Assembly: GCA_945861535.1 (NCBI GenBank)
Contig: CAMAUZ010000013.1
Location: 1-37,943 of the forward strand
Source of the DNA: Akkermansia muciniphila
GTDB lineage: Bacteria; Verrucomicrobiota; Verrucomicrobiia; Limisphaerales; BJHT01
Length of the DNA: 37,943 bases
Direction of reading: 5' to 3'
Made by a program: the position numbers and the translations under genes. This document shows, in pieces, positions 2,782 to 22,528 of this stretch. Below the pieces are notes generated by a model. That model searched no databases and was not told where the DNA came from. It saw only the letters and a list, made by a program, of their open reading frames with translations. Every line of letters starts with the position of its first letter. Within the stretch, counting starts at the first letter, position 1.

Positions 2782-4119
2782 ATGAGCGAAATAAAGACCA
2801 ACTGCGCGGGCGTGCGACGCCGCGATTTCCTGCAACTCGGCCTCGGTGCGGCGGCGGGCATCGGCTTTTCCGATCTGCTGCGCCTCCGCGCGCAGGGAGC
2901 GGCGGCGATGGGCAAGGCCAGCCCGGACGAGGTGCGCTGCATTCTCGTGTGGCTGGATGGCGGGCCGAGCCATTTCGAGTCGTTCGATCCGAAGCCGGAC
3001 GCGCCACGGGAGATTCGCGGGCAGTTCGGCACGATTCCGACGAAGATTCCCGGCGCGCATTTTTCGGAGGTTGTGCCGCAGCTCGCGGCGGCGTCGGACA
3101 AGTTCACGATCGTCCGCTCGATCTGCCACAAGGATCCGAATCACGGCGGCGGCAATCATTACCTGATGACCGGCGCGCCGACGCCCGTGCCCGTGGGCTG
3201 CGGGGCGTTTGTCACGTTTCACCCGTCGTTCGGCTCGGTGGTGTCTTACAAGCGCGGGGTGCGGAGCGGGATGCCGGCGTACATGACGACGCCGTCGATG
3301 ACACGCTCGGGCGGGCCGAATTTCCTCGGCGGTCAGCACGCGCCATTTGTGATCGGCAACGATCCGAATGGCGCGGACTTCAAGGTGCGCGACGTGGTCC
3401 TGCCCACCGAGATCAGCGAAGGGCGCGCGATGACGCGACAGCAGTTGCGCCAGTCACTCGACCAGATGGCGCGCATCAACGACGCCGAGGCGGAGGATCC
3501 AACGCTGAGTTTCGACAGCTTTTACCGGCAGGGTCTCGAGTTGGTGTCGTCGCCGACTGCCCAGGCGGCGTTCGATATTTCGCGCGAGCCGGAGAAGGTG
3601 CGCGACATGTATGGGCGAAATTCGGTGGGCCAGCGACTGCTGCTGTGCCGGCGACTGGTCGAGGTCGGCGTGTCGTTCGTGACCTGTCACTACGGCGGAT
3701 GGGATCATCATGTGGATCTTTTCAAGGTGGTGAAGGAGACCTTCATGCCGAAGCTCGATCAGGGCTTGTCGGCGCTGATCCGCGATTTGGATGACCGCGG
3801 GTTGTTGAAGAACACGCTGGTGATCTGCCTGGGCGAATTTGGGCGGACGCCGATCATCAACGAGCGCGCCGGGCGCGATCACTGGCCGGGCGCGATGTCG
3901 GTGCTGATGGCGGGCGCGGGCGTGCCGCGTGGGCACATCGTGGGCGCGACGGACTCGAAGGGTTATTACGCGTCGGAGAACATTTATTCGCCGGAGGATT
4001 TCGCCGCGACGCTCTATACGAAGATGGGCATTGATCCCGAACAGGTGCTGCACACGAACACGGGGCGGCCCGTGCAACTGGTCAACGGCGGGCGCCGGAT
4101 CAAGGAATTGTTCGCTTGA
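2782..4119 (+). CDS. DUF1501 Tat-exported protein (alkaline phosphatase/sulfatase-like fold)
   Basis: Protein of 445 aa starting at an ATG with a purine-rich GGAGAA ribosome-binding sequence 5-10 bases upstream. Residues 11-30 form a twin-arginine signal (RRRDFLQLGLGAAAGIGFSD). DUF1501 landmarks follow: WLDGGPSHFESFDPK near residue 55, CHKDPNHGGGNHYLMTGAP near 115, CHYGGWDHH near 300 and CLGEFGRTP near 350. These proteins are distant relatives of the alkaline-phosphatase/sulfatase superfamily, but the substrate is unknown. It follows the DUF1549/1553 gene closely and its stop overlaps the first possible start of the PPC gene, so the three probably form one operon. Pairing of DUF1501 with DUF1549/1553 is a recurrent context in these phyla. 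Confidence 0.9.
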   Translation: MSEIKTNCAGVRRRDFLQLGLGAAAGIGFSDLLRLRAQGAAAMGKASPDEVRCILVWLDGGPSHFESFDPKPDAPREIRGQFGTIPTKIPGAHFSEVVPQLAAASDKFTIVRSICHKDPNHGGGNHYLMTGAPTPVPVGCGAFVTFHPSFGSVVSYKRGVRSGMPAYMTTPSMTRSGGPNFLGGQHAPFVIGNDPNGADFKVRDVVLPTEISEGRAMTRQQLRQSLDQMARINDAEAEDPTLSFDSFYRQGLELVSSPTAQAAFDISREPEKVRDMYGRNSVGQRLLLCRRLVEVGVSFVTCHYGGWDHHVDLFKVVKETFMPKLDQGLSALIRDLDDRGLLKNTLVICLGEFGRTPIINERAGRDHWPGAMSVLMAGAGVPRGHIVGATDSKGYYASENIYSPEDFAATLYTKMGIDPEQVLHTNTGRPVQLVNGGRRIKELFA

Positions 4120-8893: not shown

Positions 8894-9871
8894 ATGTCCC
8901 ACCAACCCCATAACATCTCCGCCGGCACGCAGGTCGTGTCCCTGATCGCAGTCCGCGGGACCAACGACTCGCTCGTCCACCCGCGCGGCGCCGTCGGCGT
9001 CGTGACGCGCACCCCCGCCGTCGCCGGCGAGAAATTTCTCGTCCGCTTTCCCGATGGCTTCGAGAAGTCCCTGGCCCGTTCCGAACTCGAAGTCCTGCAA
9101 CACTTCAAATCCCGCCTCGGTCCGGTAGGGCGTGGTGTCCTCACCGCGCCGCCGCCAGCCGACGGCCCGCCCGATCTCGCGCCCGCCGCCTTCGACCTCG
9201 AATCCTTCATCCTCTACCGCTGCGTCGTCGGCTCGCGTGCCTACGGACTCGACCACGACGACTCCGACACCGACCGCCGCGGCATCTACCTCGCGCCCGC
9301 CGACCTGCACTGGTCGCTCTTCGGCGCGCCCGAACAATTCGAGGACCACGCCGCGCAAAGCTGCTACTGGGAATTGCAGAAATTCCTCACCATGGCGCTC
9401 AAGGCCAACCCGAACATCCTCGAGTGCCTCTACTCGCCGCTGGTCGAGAAAATCACGCCGCTCGGCGAAGAACTCCTCACCCTGCGCTCCGGCTTCCTCT
9501 CGCAAATGATCTTCCAGACCTTCAACGGCTACGCGATGAGCCAGTTCAAAAAAATCGAACAGGACATCCGCAACCACGGCACCGTGCGCTGGAAACACGC
9601 CATGCACCTCCTCCGACTCCTCCTCACCGGCGCCGCCACCTTGCGTCTGGCCCGCGTCCCGGTCCGCGTCGAGGCCCACCGCGACCGCCTCCTCGCCGTC
9701 AAACACGGTGCCCTTCCCTGGCCCGCCGTGGACGCCTGGCGGCAAGAACTCCACCGCGACTTCGAGCTCGCCCTCGCCGAAACCCACCTCCCCGAACGCC
9801 CCGACTACGAGGCGGCGAACCGCTTCCTGATCAAAGCCCGACGGGCGATGGCGATGACGGGAGAACGTTGA
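8894..9871 (+). CDS. Pol-beta superfamily nucleotidyltransferase, RlaP type (RNA repair-associated)
   Basis: Protein of 325 aa. Residues 12-72 form a small beta-rich domain of unknown role. The nucleotidyltransferase core (PF10127/RlaP type) opens with GSRAYGLDHDDSDTDRRG at residues 113-130, with the catalytic metal-binding pair Asp125/Asp127. It continues through WELQKFLTMALKANPNILECLY, a conserved helix of this family. Members are found beside the bacterial RNA-repair genes hen1 and pnkp and are thought to add nucleotides to damaged RNA ends. Consistent with this, a Hen1 fragment begins three bases after its stop. No disabling change is visible, so it appears intact, although the adjacent repair genes are wrecked. 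A second member of the family lies at 13332. Confidence 0.85.
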   Translation: MSHQPHNISAGTQVVSLIAVRGTNDSLVHPRGAVGVVTRTPAVAGEKFLVRFPDGFEKSLARSELEVLQHFKSRLGPVGRGVLTAPPPADGPPDLAPAAFDLESFILYRCVVGSRAYGLDHDDSDTDRRGIYLAPADLHWSLFGAPEQFEDHAAQSCYWELQKFLTMALKANPNILECLYSPLVEKITPLGEELLTLRSGFLSQMIFQTFNGYAMSQFKKIEQDIRNHGTVRWKHAMHLLRLLLTGAATLRLARVPVRVEAHRDRLLAVKHGALPWPAVDAWRQELHRDFELALAETHLPERPDYEAANRFLIKARRAMAMTGER

Positions 9872-9874
9872 GCC

Positions 9875-10048
9875 ATGGGCGCCACGCGCGACGAACGCCG
9901 CGCCGCCTGCGACGCCGCCGCGGTGGTCGAGGTCATCGAACATCTCGACCCGCCCCGTCTGGCCAACTTCGAGCACGTGCTCTTTGGCTGCGCCCGCCCC
10001 GGCACCGTGGTGCTCACCACGCCCTACCGTGAATACAAGGTGAAGTGA
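9875..10048 (+). pseudogene. hen1: Remnant of Hen1 3'-terminal RNA ribose 2'-O-methyltransferase
   Basis: A 57-codon open frame starts three bases after the nucleotidyltransferase stop. It reads AAAVVEVIEHLDPPRL followed by a phenylalanine/valine-rich helix, then PGTVVLTTP and REYKV. This is the metal-binding and SAM-pocket segment of bacterial Hen1 (motif ExxEH, then the TTP strand). Full Hen1 is about 450-480 aa, so some 300 N-terminal residues and about 100 C-terminal residues, including the later metal ligands, are gone. Hen1 marks repaired tRNA 3' ends with a 2'-O-methyl group before Pnkp seals them. This fragment cannot be active. The kept stretch is contiguous and free of stops. Confidence 0.75.
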
Positions 10049-10155
10049 GAAACCCTACCCGTCGGCCCCGAGGACGCGCTGGTAGGTTCGTCGACGTAGT
10101 TGGCGGTGTTCAGGCAACTCAAACACGGCGAAAAACCGGCTTCCACCTAGCCGAG

Positions 10156-10208
10156 TTTTTGAAAATGAACTTTCAAAAAGGGCGAGGATTTTAAAGTGGA
10201 CTTTCAAT
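10156..10208 (+). promoter_or_regulatory. Twin palindromes upstream of the DUF4143 ATPase gene, candidate operators
   Basis: The first palindrome, 10156-10179, is TTTTTGAAA, a six-base spacer, then TTTCAAAAA. The second, about 10189-10208, is less perfect: AAAG-TGGA-CTTT flanked by TT and CAA. Both share the core ACTTTCAA and are exactly 30 bases apart, about three helical turns, ending about 20 bases before the ATG at 10230. The AT-rich composition stands out from the surroundings. They could be operators for an autoregulator or sites recognised by the ATPase itself. That is inference. Confidence 0.5.
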
Positions 10209-10229: not shown

Positions 10230-11477
10230 ATGATTGCACGTTGGCCGGAGAGCAAATGGCGGAAAGATTTCACCCGCCCCTACGTTCAGATTGTCTTTGG
10301 CGCCCGCCAGACCGGCAAATCCACCTTGATCCGAAGCCTGCTCCCGGAGGGCGCCACCGTCGTGGACCTGTCCGACCCCAGGGAACGCGGGCTGTATTTG
10401 AACGACCCGGGCCGGTTCATCACGCTTTGCCGGAGTCTGCCCGCCCGCGGACCGGCGACTTGGGTCTTCGTGGACGAGGCCCAGTCCGTGCCGTCGATCT
10501 TCGATTCAGTCCAGCACCTCTACGACCGGGAGAAACAGCGCTGGCATTTCATCCTCTGCGGCAGCTCAGCCCGCAAGCTGCGCCAGACCGGTGCAAACCT
10601 CCTCCCCGGACGCAGCTTCCTCCACCGGCTTTTTCCCCTGACCCGCATTGAACGCCCGGCCCCCGAACCCCCGATCGCTTTCGATGGGCCTGCGCCATTG
10701 GCACTGCCGTGGCCCAAAGAAGAAACCCCGGCGCGCCTGTTCCCGGCCGCCGACCTGATGGAGCGGTTGGCGTTTGGTGAACTGCCCGGCGTGGTGACCA
10801 TCGCCCGGTCGCAACGCGCCCAGATACTCGACGGCTATACCCAACTGCATCTCGAAGAGGAGATGCGGCGCGAGGCGATGGTGAAGGATTGGCCCGCCTT
10901 TGTCCGCTTCCTCCGCCTGGCGGCGGTCGAGTCCGGTCAGATGGTGAATTACCACAAAATCGCCAGCGACATCGGCCTGTCGGTGCCCACGGTCAAAAGC
11001 CATTACCAGCTATTGGAGGATATGTTTCTGGGTTTTCGCCTGCCCGCCTTCAGCGGCAGCGCCCGCAAGAACCTGCTCTCGACAGACCGGTTTCTCTTTT
11101 TCGATCTGGGCGTTCGCCATGCCGCTGCAGGACTGGTCGCCGGGTTGGACACCGTCCGCGCCAACCCCGGCCCCCTGTTCGAGCAATGGGTCGGCATCGA
11201 ATTGTGGAAGCGCCTGCAATATCTCGGCACCGGCTCGCTCCACTATCTCCGCACCAAGGACGGCGCGGAGGTGGACTTCATTATCCAACACGGCGGGCGG
11301 CTCGCGCCCATCGAGGTGAAATGGACCGAACGCCCGACGCTGACCGACGCCCGCCATCTGCTGACCTTTTTGCGCGAACATCCCAAGCAGGCCAAACACG
11401 CCTACATCATCTGCCGCTGCGACCACCCGCTGCGCCTGCACGAAAGGGTGACGGCGCTGCCGTGGTTTTGTCTGTGA
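10230..11477 (+). CDS. AAA_14/DUF4143 ATPase
   Basis: Protein of 415 aa. An N-terminal AAA_14 P-loop domain has Walker A GARQTGKST at residues 24-32, Walker B VFVDEAQ at 79-85 and a sensor-like FILCGSSARKLR near 111. It is followed by a winged-helix-like region (NYHKIASDIGLSVPTVKSHY). The C-terminal DUF4143 domain carries the PD-(D/E)XK-like signature GAEVDFI and IEVKW. Such ATPases are widespread in bacteria and archaea, often scattered or horizontally transferred, and their role is poorly defined; links to DNA mobility or toxin-like systems have been suggested. Here it sits between the Hen1 and Pnkp remnants, so it is probably an insertion into the old repair locus. Twin palindromes lie directly upstream. 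Confidence 0.9.
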   Translation: MIARWPESKWRKDFTRPYVQIVFGARQTGKSTLIRSLLPEGATVVDLSDPRERGLYLNDPGRFITLCRSLPARGPATWVFVDEAQSVPSIFDSVQHLYDREKQRWHFILCGSSARKLRQTGANLLPGRSFLHRLFPLTRIERPAPEPPIAFDGPAPLALPWPKEETPARLFPAADLMERLAFGELPGVVTIARSQRAQILDGYTQLHLEEEMRREAMVKDWPAFVRFLRLAAVESGQMVNYHKIASDIGLSVPTVKSHYQLLEDMFLGFRLPAFSGSARKNLLSTDRFLFFDLGVRHAAAGLVAGLDTVRANPGPLFEQWVGIELWKRLQYLGTGSLHYLRTKDGAEVDFIIQHGGRLAPIEVKWTERPTLTDARHLLTFLREHPKQAKHAYIICRCDHPLRLHERVTALPWFCL

Positions 11478-11669: not shown

Positions 11670-11909
11670 ATGTCTCAGCGCATGAGACCGACTGTTGCCC
11701 CGGATGCCGGCGTGTTTAATCCCGCGCCGGTGCCGACGCCAGTTCCCAACAAGAGACTGCGCGAAGGTATTTTGCTACAGGCACGGCGCAGCTTTCAGTC
11801 ATCCAAAAACGCCTACCGAACCAAGCTGCCGGGCTTCGAGGTCCGGCGCGATGCCGCCATCATTCCCAGCCGCCGCGCGCAGGAGTTGCTCGCGGAGGAA
11901 ACGACATGA
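11670..11909 (+). CDS. Small basic hypothetical protein (79 aa)
   Basis: Not recognised. It has a proline-rich N-terminus (FNPAPVPTPVPNKRL) and a basic helix-prone C-terminal half (LLQARRSFQSSKNAYRTK, then IIPSRRAQELLAEE). No signal or membrane segment is present. A second ATG lies at 11682. There is no strong ribosome-binding site before either start. Its stop overlaps the start of the next 23-codon frame as ATGA, and that frame in turn overlaps the GyrB-like gene, so the three are arranged for coupled translation. This arrangement is the main reason to believe it is real. Confidence 0.45.
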   Translation: MSQRMRPTVAPDAGVFNPAPVPTPVPNKRLREGILLQARRSFQSSKNAYRTKLPGFEVRRDAAIIPSRRAQELLAEETT

Positions 11910-11977
11910 AAACCGTCTTGTTGAAGACGAATGTCCCGCTCGCGCTGGCGCGAAAACCCCGGTTCGTCAATGACTGA
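11906..11977 (+). CDS. Very short ORF (23 aa) coupled to the GyrB-like gene
   Basis: A strong ribosome-binding sequence GGAGGAA (11894-11900) lies five bases before the ATG at 11906. The frame encodes 23 residues (MKTVLLKTNV to FVND) and ends at 11977, eight bases past the start of the GyrB-like gene at 11970. That gene has no ribosome-binding sequence of its own, so this short frame probably delivers ribosomes to it. It may be a leader peptide, a small functional peptide, or the residue of a decayed gene. No homology was recognised. Confidence 0.45.
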   Translation: MKTVLLKTNVPLALARKPRFVND

Positions 11978-13010
11978 GATACTGGAGCAACTCAGAGATT
12001 TTGCCGCCGGCATCCGCCGCAAGCCGGCAATGTATTTCGGCCGCCGCGGCAGCCCGGCAATACCGCTGATGACTCGTGGCTTGATTGACGCCGTGTTGGC
12101 CACGGCTGGGAAAAAGTATCGTGGGCCGATTGTAGTTTCGGTCACGGGCAAGGGACGAAGGCAGGCCATTTCGGTCGAGTTCGCAGCCTTGGCTTCGACG
12201 GTGTTTTCCCACGCCCGGCTGGACGGATTTCTCCAGTCAATGACGACACAGCCGGCCTATGAGCTTGGCTCGGCTGCCGCCGGATCCCGCCAGTTCGCCA
12301 TGGAAAGTTGCGACGGTCAGCGGCGCGCGCTTTTGGAAATTCAGCATGGCTTCCAAGTCGCGACCGAAACCACGCCGTCTCCCCTGCCCCCCAGCCTCCG
12401 CGTCGTGTTTCAACCAGAGCCAACGCTGTTCGACTGCTTGTCGCACGATGGTCTCTATAATCTGGCGGGCAATCTTCGCGATTTGAGTCTGCTCCATCCC
12501 GGCCTGGCCACTCATTTCACCGCCGATTCATTGGCTGGCGAGCTCCGCTACTTTCACCAGCATGGACTGAAGAGCCTCCTCTTCGAAGACGATCACGCCC
12601 GCTGGCCGCTGCATCCGGGTTGCCTGAGTTTCAAAGGCACGGCGAAGAACATGCGGGTAGAGGGTCATCTTCGCTTTCTTCACGCCGGACTTCCCCATGT
12701 TCGGAGTTACGTCAATGGCCACCCGGCGCAGGGAGCCGCGCATCTGGAAGGTCTGGGTGCCGCCTTGCTCGAGTTGTTTCCCGATCCATCGTTGGGCTGC
12801 CGACGCGTCTCCTTTGTTACCAATCCAGACACCGACGCCAAAATCGAACTGCCCCACCCGTTCCTCGCAGCGATGCAGCTTCAACTTGCCGAGCCACGAT
12901 ATTACGGCCCCACCCGGGACGTTCTCTGTGGCGACGAGGTGCGTGAATTCGTCCGCTGCGCGGCATCCGAAACGCTGCGGAAGCAGTGGGAAAACCTCCG
13001 CGCGCCGTGA
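11970..13010 (+). CDS. Stand-alone GyrB-like GHKL/transducer protein with degenerate ATP site
   Basis: Protein of 346 aa from the ATG at 11970; the open frame also extends to 11931. It matches the N-terminal 390 residues of DNA gyrase B along its whole length. Residues 16-24 (RRKPAMYFG) resemble the KRPGMYIG motif. NLRDLSLLHPGL (168-179) resembles RLRELSFLNSG. The stretch around 247-261 (YVNGHPAQGAAHLEG) resembles the FTNNI...GGTHLAGF transducer motif. GPTRDVLCGDEV (313-324) sits where gyrase has the QTK loop. It ends where the transducer domain of GyrB ends, with no TOPRIM domain. The ATPase motifs are degenerate: no Glu/Asn pair of the N-box (GLIDAVLA instead), no GxxGxG lid glycines, and Arg for the QTK lysine. 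It is probably a non-hydrolysing structural or DNA-contacting protein. Its partner and role are unknown. Confidence 0.65.
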   Translation: MTEILEQLRDFAAGIRRKPAMYFGRRGSPAIPLMTRGLIDAVLATAGKKYRGPIVVSVTGKGRRQAISVEFAALASTVFSHARLDGFLQSMTTQPAYELGSAAAGSRQFAMESCDGQRRALLEIQHGFQVATETTPSPLPPSLRVVFQPEPTLFDCLSHDGLYNLAGNLRDLSLLHPGLATHFTADSLAGELRYFHQHGLKSLLFEDDHARWPLHPGCLSFKGTAKNMRVEGHLRFLHAGLPHVRSYVNGHPAQGAAHLEGLGAALLELFPDPSLGCRRVSFVTNPDTDAKIELPHPFLAAMQLQLAEPRYYGPTRDVLCGDEVREFVRCAASETLRKQWENLRAP

Positions 13011-13037: not shown

Positions 13038-13316
13038 ATGACCCTCACCCTCCCCGATCTCTCCCTCGTCGTGCTCGTCGGCGTGTCCGGCTCGGGCAAG
13101 AGCACGTTTGCGCGGAAGCATTTTCGGCCGACGGAGATTCTGTCGTCGGATGCATGCCGGGCGATGGTGTCGGATAACGAGAACAATCAGGCGACGACGA
13201 AGGATGCGCCTGCGTTGAACCACTTTCTCCCGCGCCGCGAGGCGCTCCGGCGCGTCCACGAATGCATCTTCGGCGTGCTCGCGCTGGAGAACGAGCCGGT
13301 GGACCCAAGGTTGTGA
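13038..13316 (+). pseudogene. pnkp: Internally deleted Pnkp (polynucleotide kinase-phosphatase-ligase)
   Basis: An intact 92-codon frame joins the two ends of Pnkp. Residues 1-57 are its kinase start, with P-loop GVSGSGKST and the conserved SSDACRAMVSDNENNQATTK segment. Residues from about 60 on (REALRRVHECIFGVLALE, then EPVDPRL) match, from memory of the family, the last 30 residues of the C-terminal ligase domain. Normal bacterial Pnkp is roughly 850 aa, so about 750 residues (rest of kinase, phosphatase, most of ligase) are missing in frame, with the junction near 13203. The product cannot repair RNA. Pnkp normally follows hen1 directly; here the two remnants are separated by 3 kb of inserted genes. 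Confidence 0.75.
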
Positions 13317-13331
13317 GCGATCGTTGAGCCT

Positions 13332-14090
13332 ATGCCCATTGATCCACGCCTCCACCGCATCGTCGCCGCGCAGCCGTATCCATTGCTCTTCGCGACTATA
13401 AGCGGGGCGCACCTGTATGGCTTTCCTTCGCCCGACTCGGACTTCGATTTGCGCGGGGCGCATGTGCTGCCGCTGGCGCACGTCGTCGGGCTGGTGGTGC
13501 GCGAGGAGACGATCACGGATGCGCGGGTCAGCGAAGGGCTGGAGATGGACATCGTGAGCCATGATGTGCGGAAGTTTTTCGGCCTGCTGCTCAAGAAGAA
13601 CGGTTACGTGCTGGAGCAGCTCTTCTCGCCGCTCATCGTTCACACGACGCCGGAGCACGCGGAGCTGAAGAACCTGGCGCGCGGGTGCATCACGCGGCAT
13701 CACTCGCATCATTACTTCGGGTTCGCGGAGACGCAGTGGAAGCTGTTTTTGAAGGAGTCGCCGCGCCGGGTGAAGCCGCTGCTCTACGTGTATCGCGTGC
13801 TGCTCACGGGCATTCACCTGCTGCGCACGGGCGCGGCGGAGGCGAATCTCGTCACGCTGAACCGCGAGTTCCGGCTCCCGTTCATCGACGACCTCGTGGC
13901 GCGCAAACTCGCCGGGCCGGAGCAGTCCACGCTGGCGGCGGACGACCTCGCCTTCCATGAGTCGGAATACCAGCGGCTGCGCGGCGAATTGCAGGCGGCA
14001 CACGAGGCCAGTCACCTGCCCGAGCTGCCGAGTGAGGCGACGCGCGCGGGATTGAACGATCTGCTGGTGAGACTGCGGACGGCGTGGTGA
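13332..14090 (+). CDS. Second Pol-beta superfamily nucleotidyltransferase, RlaP type
   Basis: Protein of 252 aa starting 15 bases after the Pnkp remnant. The catalytic motif GAHLYGFPSPDSDFDLRG lies at residues 25-42, with the metal-binding pair Asp37/Asp39 and a likely third acid at Asp73 (EMDIVSHD). FGLLLKKNGYVLEQLFSPL and LLYVYRVLLTGIHLLRTGA are typical of the RlaP/PF10127 family next to pnkp. In this family the gene usually stands right after pnkp, as here. It lacks the small N-terminal domain of the paralogue at 8894 and is only distantly similar to it. No defect is seen. With Hen1 and Pnkp gone, its remaining substrate is unclear. Confidence 0.85.
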   Translation: MPIDPRLHRIVAAQPYPLLFATISGAHLYGFPSPDSDFDLRGAHVLPLAHVVGLVVREETITDARVSEGLEMDIVSHDVRKFFGLLLKKNGYVLEQLFSPLIVHTTPEHAELKNLARGCITRHHSHHYFGFAETQWKLFLKESPRRVKPLLYVYRVLLTGIHLLRTGAAEANLVTLNREFRLPFIDDLVARKLAGPEQSTLAADDLAFHESEYQRLRGELQAAHEASHLPELPSEATRAGLNDLLVRLRTAW

Positions 14091-20027: not shown

Positions 20028-22280
20028 CTAGTTTTTCCGGGCGTGGGACGGTTCGCTGATGAATTCAACCACGCCGGTGCGGACGTCGTAGAGTCCACCG
20101 ACAAGGGCGATTTGCCGGCGTTCCAACAAGCCGCGCATGGTCGCGCTGCGGCGGCGGATGACTTCCATGGTGTGCAGGACGTTCAACCGGGCGACGCTGT
20201 CCACGAAGGCCTCGTTGTGGGCGCTGCGGTCGCCGCGGGTTTCGTGCTCAGCTTCCACAGCGTGCTGGATGTAGCCGGTGATGGATTTGATGTGGTCGCA
20301 GCCGGAGGCCTGGCAGGCGTCCACCTGACGGTGAACGATGTCCACCGTGGCCTTCACGGCGCCGCATCGGGTGTGGCCCAGGACCAGGAGCAACTTGGCC
20401 CCGGCCACCGCACAGCCGTATTCCATGCTGGCCAGGGCGTCTTCCATGGCGATGTTGCCCGCCACCCGGATGCTGAAGATGTCCCCGAGGCCGAGATCGA
20501 AGACGAGTTCCGTGGAGGTGCGGGAATCCATGCAACTGAGCACGACGGCGAGGGGGAACTGGCCTTGGGCGGTGGCGTTGACCTGCCGCATGAGATCGCG
20601 GGAAACGCGTTCGCCGCGCACGAACCGCGCGTTGCCCTCCTGCAGAATCTTCAGAACGCGCGCGGGGTCGATCTGGGTCTGGACCTCGCGGGTGGAGACG
20701 TCCACGTATTGGATGTGGTCGTCCATGACATAGCGTTCCTTGAAGCCCACCAGGCTGAGGAAGATGCCGCGCGCGGGCGCGGTCTGGGTGCGGAAGTCCT
20801 GGATCAGGTCCAGCACGTCCGAGTCGATGTAGTCGGTGTTGCGCGCATCCAGCACGACGTGCCCGCCGGATGGCACGGAGTTCAGCGACTGCTCGAGCAC
20901 GGCGCGGTTGAGGAAGCTGACCTGGTTCGCCAGCTCGATCCGCAACACTTCGCCGCCAACGTGGTGTTCCATGAAGCGGCGCAAGGGTCGGCGGAAGTTG
21001 CTGTGCAGGATGAAGAGCAAGCTGACGCCGAGCCCAATCAGAATGCCCACCAGCAAGTCGGTCAGGACGATGGCCAGAATGGTGACGATGAAGGGGAGGA
21101 ACTGGTTGCGGCCCTCGGCCCACATCTGCCGGAAGAGGGCGGGACTGGCCAGTTTGAGCCCGGTGGCAAGGAGGATGGCGGCCAGTGCGGCGAGGGGGAT
21201 TTCATTGAGCCAATGGGGGACCAGCACGACCAGCAGCAACAGCAGCGCGCCATGGATGAAGGCGGACATGCGGGTCGCCCCCCCGGCGTTGATGTTCACT
21301 GAGCTGCGCACGATGACGGACGTCACCGGCAGGCCGCCCAGCAGGCCGGCGACGCAGTTGCCGATGCCTTGGGCGACGAGTTCCCGATTGGGGGGCGAGG
21401 TGCGCTTGCGGGGGTCCAGCTTGTCCACCGCCTCGAGGTTGAGCAGCGTCTCCAGCGAGGCCACGACGGCGATGGTGAAGGCCGCGGTGTAGATGGCGGG
21501 GTTTGCCAGCGCCCGGAAATCCGGCCGGGGCAACTGTCGAAACAGTTCCCCCAGGCTTGCGGCTGTCGGAACCTGGACCAAGTGGGACTCGCTGATGGCC
21601 CAACCGCTGCCAAAGTGGCGCAAGGCTTGGTTCACCAGCACGCCGAGCAGCACCACGACCAATGGGGCCGGCACCCGGAGTTGCTTCAGCTTGGTGCGAT
21701 CCCAAACGAGCAGCAAGGTCAGGGAGAGCAAGCCGACCAGGGTGGCTCCCGCCTCAAAATCGAGAAAGCTGGCGAAGAGCTCGCTGAAGGTGTTCTGCCC
21801 GTCTGGTTGCAGGAACTCCATTTCGCCTTCCGGGTCGGCATCGTGGCCCACCACATGGGGAATCTGCTTCAGAATGAGGAGCACACCGATGGCCGCCAGC
21901 AGCCCCTTGATGACGCTGGACGGGAAGAAGGCGGCGATGAATCCCGCCCGCATCACCCCCAGGCCAATCTGCATCAAGCCCGCCAGCATCACCGCCACGA
22001 GAAAGGCCTCAAATGATTTCAGCGCGGCGATTTGCGCGAACACCACGGCGGCCAAACCTGCTGCTGGTCCGCTGACGCTGGTGTGCGAGCCGCTGAGCCA
22101 GGCGACGACCAATCCGCCAACCACCCCGCTGATGATGCCCGCCATGAGCGGGGCGTTGGATGCCAGCGCGATGCCCAGACACAGCGGCAGTGCGACCAGA
22201 AACACGACTACGCTGGCCGCCAGATCCTTGGGCAGCGCCTTGAGGTAATCCGGCTGCGATACGGCCGTTGAGCTTGTCAT
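20028..22280 (-). CDS. SulP anion transporter fused to STAS and beta-carbonic anhydrase
   Basis: From the ATG at 22280 the protein is 750 aa. The first 430 residues are a SulP-type membrane transporter with about 10-12 hydrophobic segments, including SGPAAGLAAVVFAQIAAL and GLLGGLPVTSVIVRSSVN. A STAS-like domain follows near 455-540 (HVVLDARNTDYIDSDVLDLI). The C-terminus, about 560-740, is a beta-class carbonic anhydrase with zinc ligands Cys583 (SCMDSR, with Asp585/Arg587), His636 and Cys639 (LGHTRCGA). SulP-carbonic anhydrase fusions are known in several bacteria and are thought to couple bicarbonate or another anion to CO2 hydration. All zinc ligands are present, so the enzyme half should be active. 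The gene stands alone, with a perfect hairpin about 96 bases upstream. Confidence 0.92.
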   Translation of the reverse strand: MTSSTAVSQPDYLKALPKDLAASVVVFLVALPLCLGIALASNAPLMAGIISGVVGGLVVAWLSGSHTSVSGPAAGLAAVVFAQIAALKSFEAFLVAVMLAGLMQIGLGVMRAGFIAAFFPSSVIKGLLAAIGVLLILKQIPHVVGHDADPEGEMEFLQPDGQNTFSELFASFLDFEAGATLVGLLSLTLLLVWDRTKLKQLRVPAPLVVVLLGVLVNQALRHFGSGWAISESHLVQVPTAASLGELFRQLPRPDFRALANPAIYTAAFTIAVVASLETLLNLEAVDKLDPRKRTSPPNRELVAQGIGNCVAGLLGGLPVTSVIVRSSVNINAGGATRMSAFIHGALLLLLVVLVPHWLNEIPLAALAAILLATGLKLASPALFRQMWAEGRNQFLPFIVTILAIVLTDLLVGILIGLGVSLLFILHSNFRRPLRRFMEHHVGGEVLRIELANQVSFLNRAVLEQSLNSVPSGGHVVLDARNTDYIDSDVLDLIQDFRTQTAPARGIFLSLVGFKERYVMDDHIQYVDVSTREVQTQIDPARVLKILQEGNARFVRGERVSRDLMRQVNATAQGQFPLAVVLSCMDSRTSTELVFDLGLGDIFSIRVAGNIAMEDALASMEYGCAVAGAKLLLVLGHTRCGAVKATVDIVHRQVDACQASGCDHIKSITGYIQHAVEAEHETRGDRSAHNEAFVDSVARLNVLHTMEVIRRRSATMRGLLERRQIALVGGLYDVRTGVVEFISEPSHARKN

Positions 22281-22375
22281 AGTTTGATTCGTTGAAGTGC
22301 TGGCGGAGACTTGGGCAGCGTCCGGCTTCGGGCAAATATGAATTTCCGAATGGGAGCTTAGGTTTTCCCGAACTA

Positions 22376-22397
22376 CCACTCCAACGTCTTGGAGTGG
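22376..22397. promoter_or_regulatory. Perfect hairpin upstream of the SulP-carbonic anhydrase gene
   Basis: CCACTCCAA and TTGGAGTGG form a nine-base perfect stem around the loop CGTC, 96 bases before the ATG at 22280. It may be an operator or a 5'-leader structure. No promoter elements could be assigned next to it. Confidence 0.35.
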
Positions 22398-22528
22398 CTC
22401 AACTATCCTCAACTGCGTTATTGCTACGGCGGCGCCAAGCCGGGCGGCCTGGCGGCGACAGAAAGTAGCAAGTCAGCCGCGCCATACCGGGCGGGCCACG
22501 CCCAGCGGAGCGAGAAAAGGCCAGCGGC

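Follow-up and report, generated by a model that had tools for sequence, protein, structure and literature searches.

The window, that is, the whole stretch of 37,943 nucleotides analyzed here, carries at positions 11970-13010 of the forward strand an intact open reading frame encoding a 346-aa protein that resembles the N-terminal half of GyrB and lies directly behind the remains of a vapBC module. The features that bear on this gene are as follows, with L004 standing for the corresponding locus of a sister genome.

11970..13010, + strand: stand-alone GyrB-NTD-like protein made of a pseudo-GHKL part and a transducer, 346 aa (ORF, profiles, family, model, motif table)
12000..12398, + strand: degenerate GHKL (Bergerat) half, residues ~11-143, in which the N-box and G1 box are lost and the lid is deleted (motif table, identity comparison)
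12399..13007, + strand: transducer half (S5 fold, PF00204), residues 144-346, with GPTR replacing the GyrB QTK at residues 313-316 (Pfam, motif table)
11670..11977, + strand: vapB remnant (11670-11909) and 5′ start of vapC (11906-11977); the vapC stop reaches into the start of the GyrB-like gene (comparison with L004)

An in-frame ATG also occurs at 11931, but the relative at L004, which is 90% identical, begins with the same MTEIL that the window protein shows from 11970, so the ATG at 11931 is probably unused and 11970 the true start. As a single sequence, the window protein matched the NCBIfam gyrB model at 1e-10 and PDB GyrB chains at 4e-8, the best of the latter being GyrB 43-kDa fragments and 3CWV. 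Pfam PF00204 fell below its cut-off in the window protein (6e-4, 19.8 bits versus 27 bits) and above it in three more distant members of the family (L035, L036, and L055). Furthermore, a four-sequence family profile aligned with GyrB chains at ~1e-20, collinearly over residues 14-339, which bears out the sequence-only reading that the protein follows the GyrB N-terminal half through the transducer and then stops. Judged from these sequence comparisons, its homology to GyrB is well beyond chance. TOPRIM and the GyrA-binding tail are absent, as the protein ends at residue 346, at the transducer and some tens of residues short of the GyrB43 end, with most of the exit helix missing; the next ORF downstream (13038) is a polynucleotide-kinase (Pnkp) remnant and holds no TOPRIM either. 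A search of a defense-system library left the GyrB-like protein unmatched.

Both in the window and at L004, the gene sits in a ruined RlaP / RNA ligase / Hen1 / Pnkp RNA-repair cassette. In the window (8894-10197 and 13038-14090), it comprises two RlaP genes, a Hen1 C-terminal remnant (~9887-10067), and a pnkp gene with an internal deletion, of which the first ~60 and last ~28 codons are left. L004 (5-2742 and 5161-5371) retains RlaP, RNA ligase, and Hen1_L together with an apparent second ligase fragment. The window's genome no longer has Hen1_L. A functional tie to these adjoining genes was rejected because the cassette is in ruin and because L035 and L036 lie elsewhere, the former near genes reading as NADH dehydrogenase and DNA-alkylation repair and the latter near genes reading as a type II secretion/pilus cluster (putative assignments read from the sequence). 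L055 adjoins an IS transposase, and no neighbor or gyrase gene common to the loci of different lineages was found. Full-length gyrB (846 aa) and a parE-like gene (659 aa) are encoded elsewhere in the window's own genome. At the place equivalent to the vapBC remnants, L004 carries an intact vapBC (VapB/PIN-VapC, 3363-4024), and in the window this module was eroded by a deletion ending at the GyrB-like start codon. Farther upstream, 10230-11477 encodes an AAA_14 + DUF4143 ATPase that matches the PADLOC candidate defense family PDC-S01 at 1e-66 and of which only the 3′ end remains in L004. An additional ORF of 794 aa at 20028-22412 has a translation that reads as a putative fusion of a carbonic anhydrase to a SulP-type anion transporter.

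Four relatives of the window protein were found within its order, at 90, 42, 40, and 38% identity. The closest copy (L004/L034) belongs to the sister genome, of the same genus, and the other three (L035, L036, and L055; 38-42%) come from three other families of that order, the gene being present in 5 of the 320 genomes of the order. Searches of 388 genomes from the phylum added no new member, the matches besides the window being open frames of full GyrB length; 384 genomes from the class yielded once more the window and G436 alone, and no relative was found among viral contigs, plasmids, and phages. None of the five members contains an internal stop, and the four complete ones (346-373 aa) end at about the same place, L036 being cut by its contig. 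The dN/dS ratio between the window and L004 copies was 0.19 (bootstrap 0.13-0.30), with 0.15 for the transducer and 0.32 for the N-terminal half, and by this measure the gene is under purifying selection. The concern that the homologs might merely be decayed parE copies with random stops is thus removed by the dN/dS value, the five open frames, and the common end, which characterize a rare, patchy, but functional gene.

Residues of the ATP site were compared, in E. coli-type GyrB numbering, among 11 GyrBs, the five family members, and 3CWV; the family residues are listed in the order window/L004/L035/L036/L055.

N-box E42: G/G/Y/F/Y
N-box N46: A/A/S/G/G
G1 box D73: V/V/V/V/T
T165: L/L/L/V/L
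Q335: P/P/P/P/A
K337 (QTK lysine): R/R/R/K/R

The 11 GyrBs keep the N-box Glu/Asn, the G1 Asp/Gly, the lid, and T165, two of them showing single lid-glycine changes. In the family, the GRGIP box is lost in all five members, and the N, G1, and G2 boxes for Mg-ATP that mark a GHKL ATPase were not found. The sequence-only reading had proposed that the N-box Glu/Asn, the lid glycines, and the QTK lysine are replaced. The first part held, with Gly and Ala in the window protein and changes in all five members. The loss of the lid (GGKF...SGGLHGVG) is equally real and common to all five, but the segment is deleted rather than substituted. At the QTK loop, which reads PTR, PTK, or ATR in the family, only the Gln is clearly lost; the Lys is changed to Arg in the window protein, a conservative replacement, and is retained in L036, so that a basic residue is kept throughout. 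On the strength of this alignment, the ATP-binding motifs are lost family-wide, the K337 site excepted.

An AlphaFold2 model built from the two closest sequences alone was useless (pLDDT 34). With an alignment (A5) of these two sequences, but not of L035, L036, or L055, plus 34 GyrB rows from viral contigs, the model reached a pLDDT of 83 and a pTM of 0.82, and in VIA-align 2 it matched E. coli GyrB (5l3j) with Z 30.8 and rmsd 2.4 over 312 residues and 3CWV with Z 28.0 and rmsd 3.1 over 316 residues. The family is therefore predicted to keep the GyrB N-terminal fold, and the GHKL-plus-S5 architecture sought as a check was obtained, albeit in partial dependence on the GyrB rows of the alignment. 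Since the model leans on these rows, better independent support for the fold comes from the sequence profile. Matches listed in the fold search were mostly gyrase or topo II. Among the weaker ones was a BFVD entry from Nile crocodilepox virus, a "GyrB-like ATPase domain protein" of 392 aa, and thus viruses too have short GyrB-like proteins.

Between lineages, identity amounts to 22-32% in the GHKL half and 37-52% in the transducer (residues 144-317), and no pocket motif conserved across members was found in the GHKL half. This order of constraint is the reverse of that in GyrB, whose GHKL part is more conserved than its transducer (PMC6821735). The identity values indicate that constraint is shifted to the transducer half, the ATP machinery having been released from selection and the transducer retained.

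The transducer has lost, in all five members, the basic cavity residues of the T-segment DNA clamp: the position of E. coli R286 is Gly or Ala, the REGL Arg is Pro, and the QTKxK Lys is Val, Ile, or Asn. In S. pneumoniae ParE, the cavity residues K291, R321, and K346 are required for strand passage (PMC6030046), and the spacing suggests that the REGL Arg and QTKxK Lys equal R321 and K346. E. coli R286 also acts via transducer rigidity and not through DNA contact alone (PMC6821735). The members are near neutral to slightly basic overall (pI 6.0-8.5). Because the basic cavity residues are lost, a GyrB-like DNA clamp action is improbable, and the earlier suggestion of a DNA-binding scaffold is weakened.

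On balance, we consider it probable that these proteins are nucleotide-independent pseudo-GHKL scaffolds that work through protein contacts on the transducer surface. Such a pseudo-enzyme would derive from the N-terminal half of GyrB/ParE and would neither bind nor hydrolyze ATP; its GHKL half would survive as a structural shell, possibly a dimerizing one, and its working part would be the conserved S5/transducer surface, a protein-protein scaffold without nucleotide, whose mapping comes from only five sequences, one of them cut and two nearly identical. MTOPVIB, in which ATP binding is lost and dimers form without ATP, would be comparable in principle. The basic residue kept at the QTK lysine and a conserved Thr count against the scaffold, as they may signal residual ligand contact.

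A second explanation, possible but unlikely, is that the protein antagonizes or regulates gyrase or topo IV by forming an inactive hetero-complex with the GyrB/ParE N-terminal domain or with GyrA/ParC, as a dominant-negative decoy. Its fold is that of the N-gate domain, gyrase is targeted by many unrelated proteins (PMC10886550), potential partners are encoded in its own genome by the full-length gyrB and the parE-like gene, and its patchiness (5/320) and mobile-element neighbors (the IS at L055, vapBC at L004) would suit an accessory conflict gene. However, the N-terminal arm of GyrB mediates ATP-dependent dimerization, and the arm residues are not conserved across the family; nor does a gyrase gene or a common neighbor lie nearby. 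No GyrB-like inhibitor was found in the part of a review on protein inhibitors of gyrase that we consulted (PMC10886550). Moreover, AtGyrB3, a short GyrB relative of Arabidopsis, binds neither GyrA nor itself and is no gyrase subunit (PMC2845627). The more specific proposal that such proteins represent undescribed, ATP-independent GyrB-like pseudo-subunits that hetero-pair with the N-gate of their own gyrase or topo IV and thereby regulate it is doubtful; if true, gyrase would here be inhibited by one of its own homologs.

Comparably doubtful is a nucleotide-independent clamp or scaffold holding DNA through the transducer cavity. The transducer is the constrained half, and MTOPVIB still binds DNA and dimerizes without ATP binding, so the loss of three cavity residues leaves room for DNA binding via another surface; the cavity itself speaks against a clamp, as the three basic positions conserved in bacterial gyrase and topo IV, whose importance is known from ParE (PMC6030046), are missing in every member, and so does the modest overall charge. 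Continued use of a nucleotide or other small ligand, bound in a different mode by a remodeled pocket, is very unlikely: a compact predicted fold of the GHKL half and the basic residue at the QTK site would be compatible with it, but all other canonical ATP-contact positions examined are changed, the lid is gone, and the GHKL half evolves faster and lacks a conserved pocket motif. Least credible of all is a functionless, decaying gyrB/parE copy, which the motif losses and the eroding window neighborhood (vapBC remnants, pnkp deletion, Hen1 remnant) might suggest but which is contradicted by the upper dN/dS bound of 0.30, by uninterrupted frames with like ends across four families of the order, and by identical motif losses in all members.

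Proteins of this kind are already known, with 3CWV as a bacterial example of like anatomy and AtGyrB3 and MTOPVIB/TOPOVIBL as functional parallels in eukaryotes, and the novelty claimed for such a protein in the sequence-only reading does not stand. 3CWV, a 369-aa "DNA gyrase, B subunit, truncated" of Myxococcus xanthus released in 2008, is likewise a stand-alone GHKL and transducer protein without TOPRIM, and it shares the losses in the N-box (E/N to F/V) and G1 box (D/G); a literature search by its PDB code found no paper. In contrast to the family, it retains the lid region, with the glycines mostly replaced, and is nearer to ordinary GyrB (32% identity to L079), its identity to the window protein being 20% over the structural alignment. 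In a tree, the family joined 3CWV (93/95), with both branches long, and an AU test rejected neither of two alternatives, in which the family groups with ParE (p 0.43) or with GyrB of its own order (p 0.46). The Verrucomicrobiota family with a deleted lid appears to be undescribed so far.

The 43-kDa N-terminal domain of GyrB/ParE shares with the family its fold, domain order, and collinearity over residues 14-339, and differs in possessing the ATP motifs, the lid, the QTK Gln, and the cavity Arg/Lys, and in being followed by TOPRIM and the tail. AtGyrB3 is similar in being short, in keeping the transducer, and in lacking ATP and TOPRIM motifs, and dissimilar in that its ATPase region consists of the transducer domain only and that it carries a putative SANT domain (PMC2845627). 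MTOPVIB has a degenerate GHKL domain without ATP binding, dimerizes independently of ATP, and binds DNA; like the family, MTOPVIB/TOPOVIBL combine a degenerate GHKL domain having a poor or missing ATP lid with a transducer, and they act without ATP (PMC11077084). They differ as eukaryotic, meiotic proteins of the Topo VI (IIB) type with a known partner, SPO11, and are set beside the family as a functional parallel; no neighbor that could be such a catalytic A-type partner is shared between the family's lineages, though one may lie elsewhere in the genome. Dead relatives of GHKL ATPases can thus take new jobs, MTOPVIB/TOPOVIBL being needed for meiotic breaks and AtGyrB3 being no longer a gyrase subunit. 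The family makes it testable whether bacteria, too, use ATP-free gyrase-shaped proteins, one of which may perhaps control gyrase, a major drug target. Among bacteria, the visible precedent is one solved structure, 3CWV, beside which the present family, maintained by selection and with its lid removed outright, stands as a second set.
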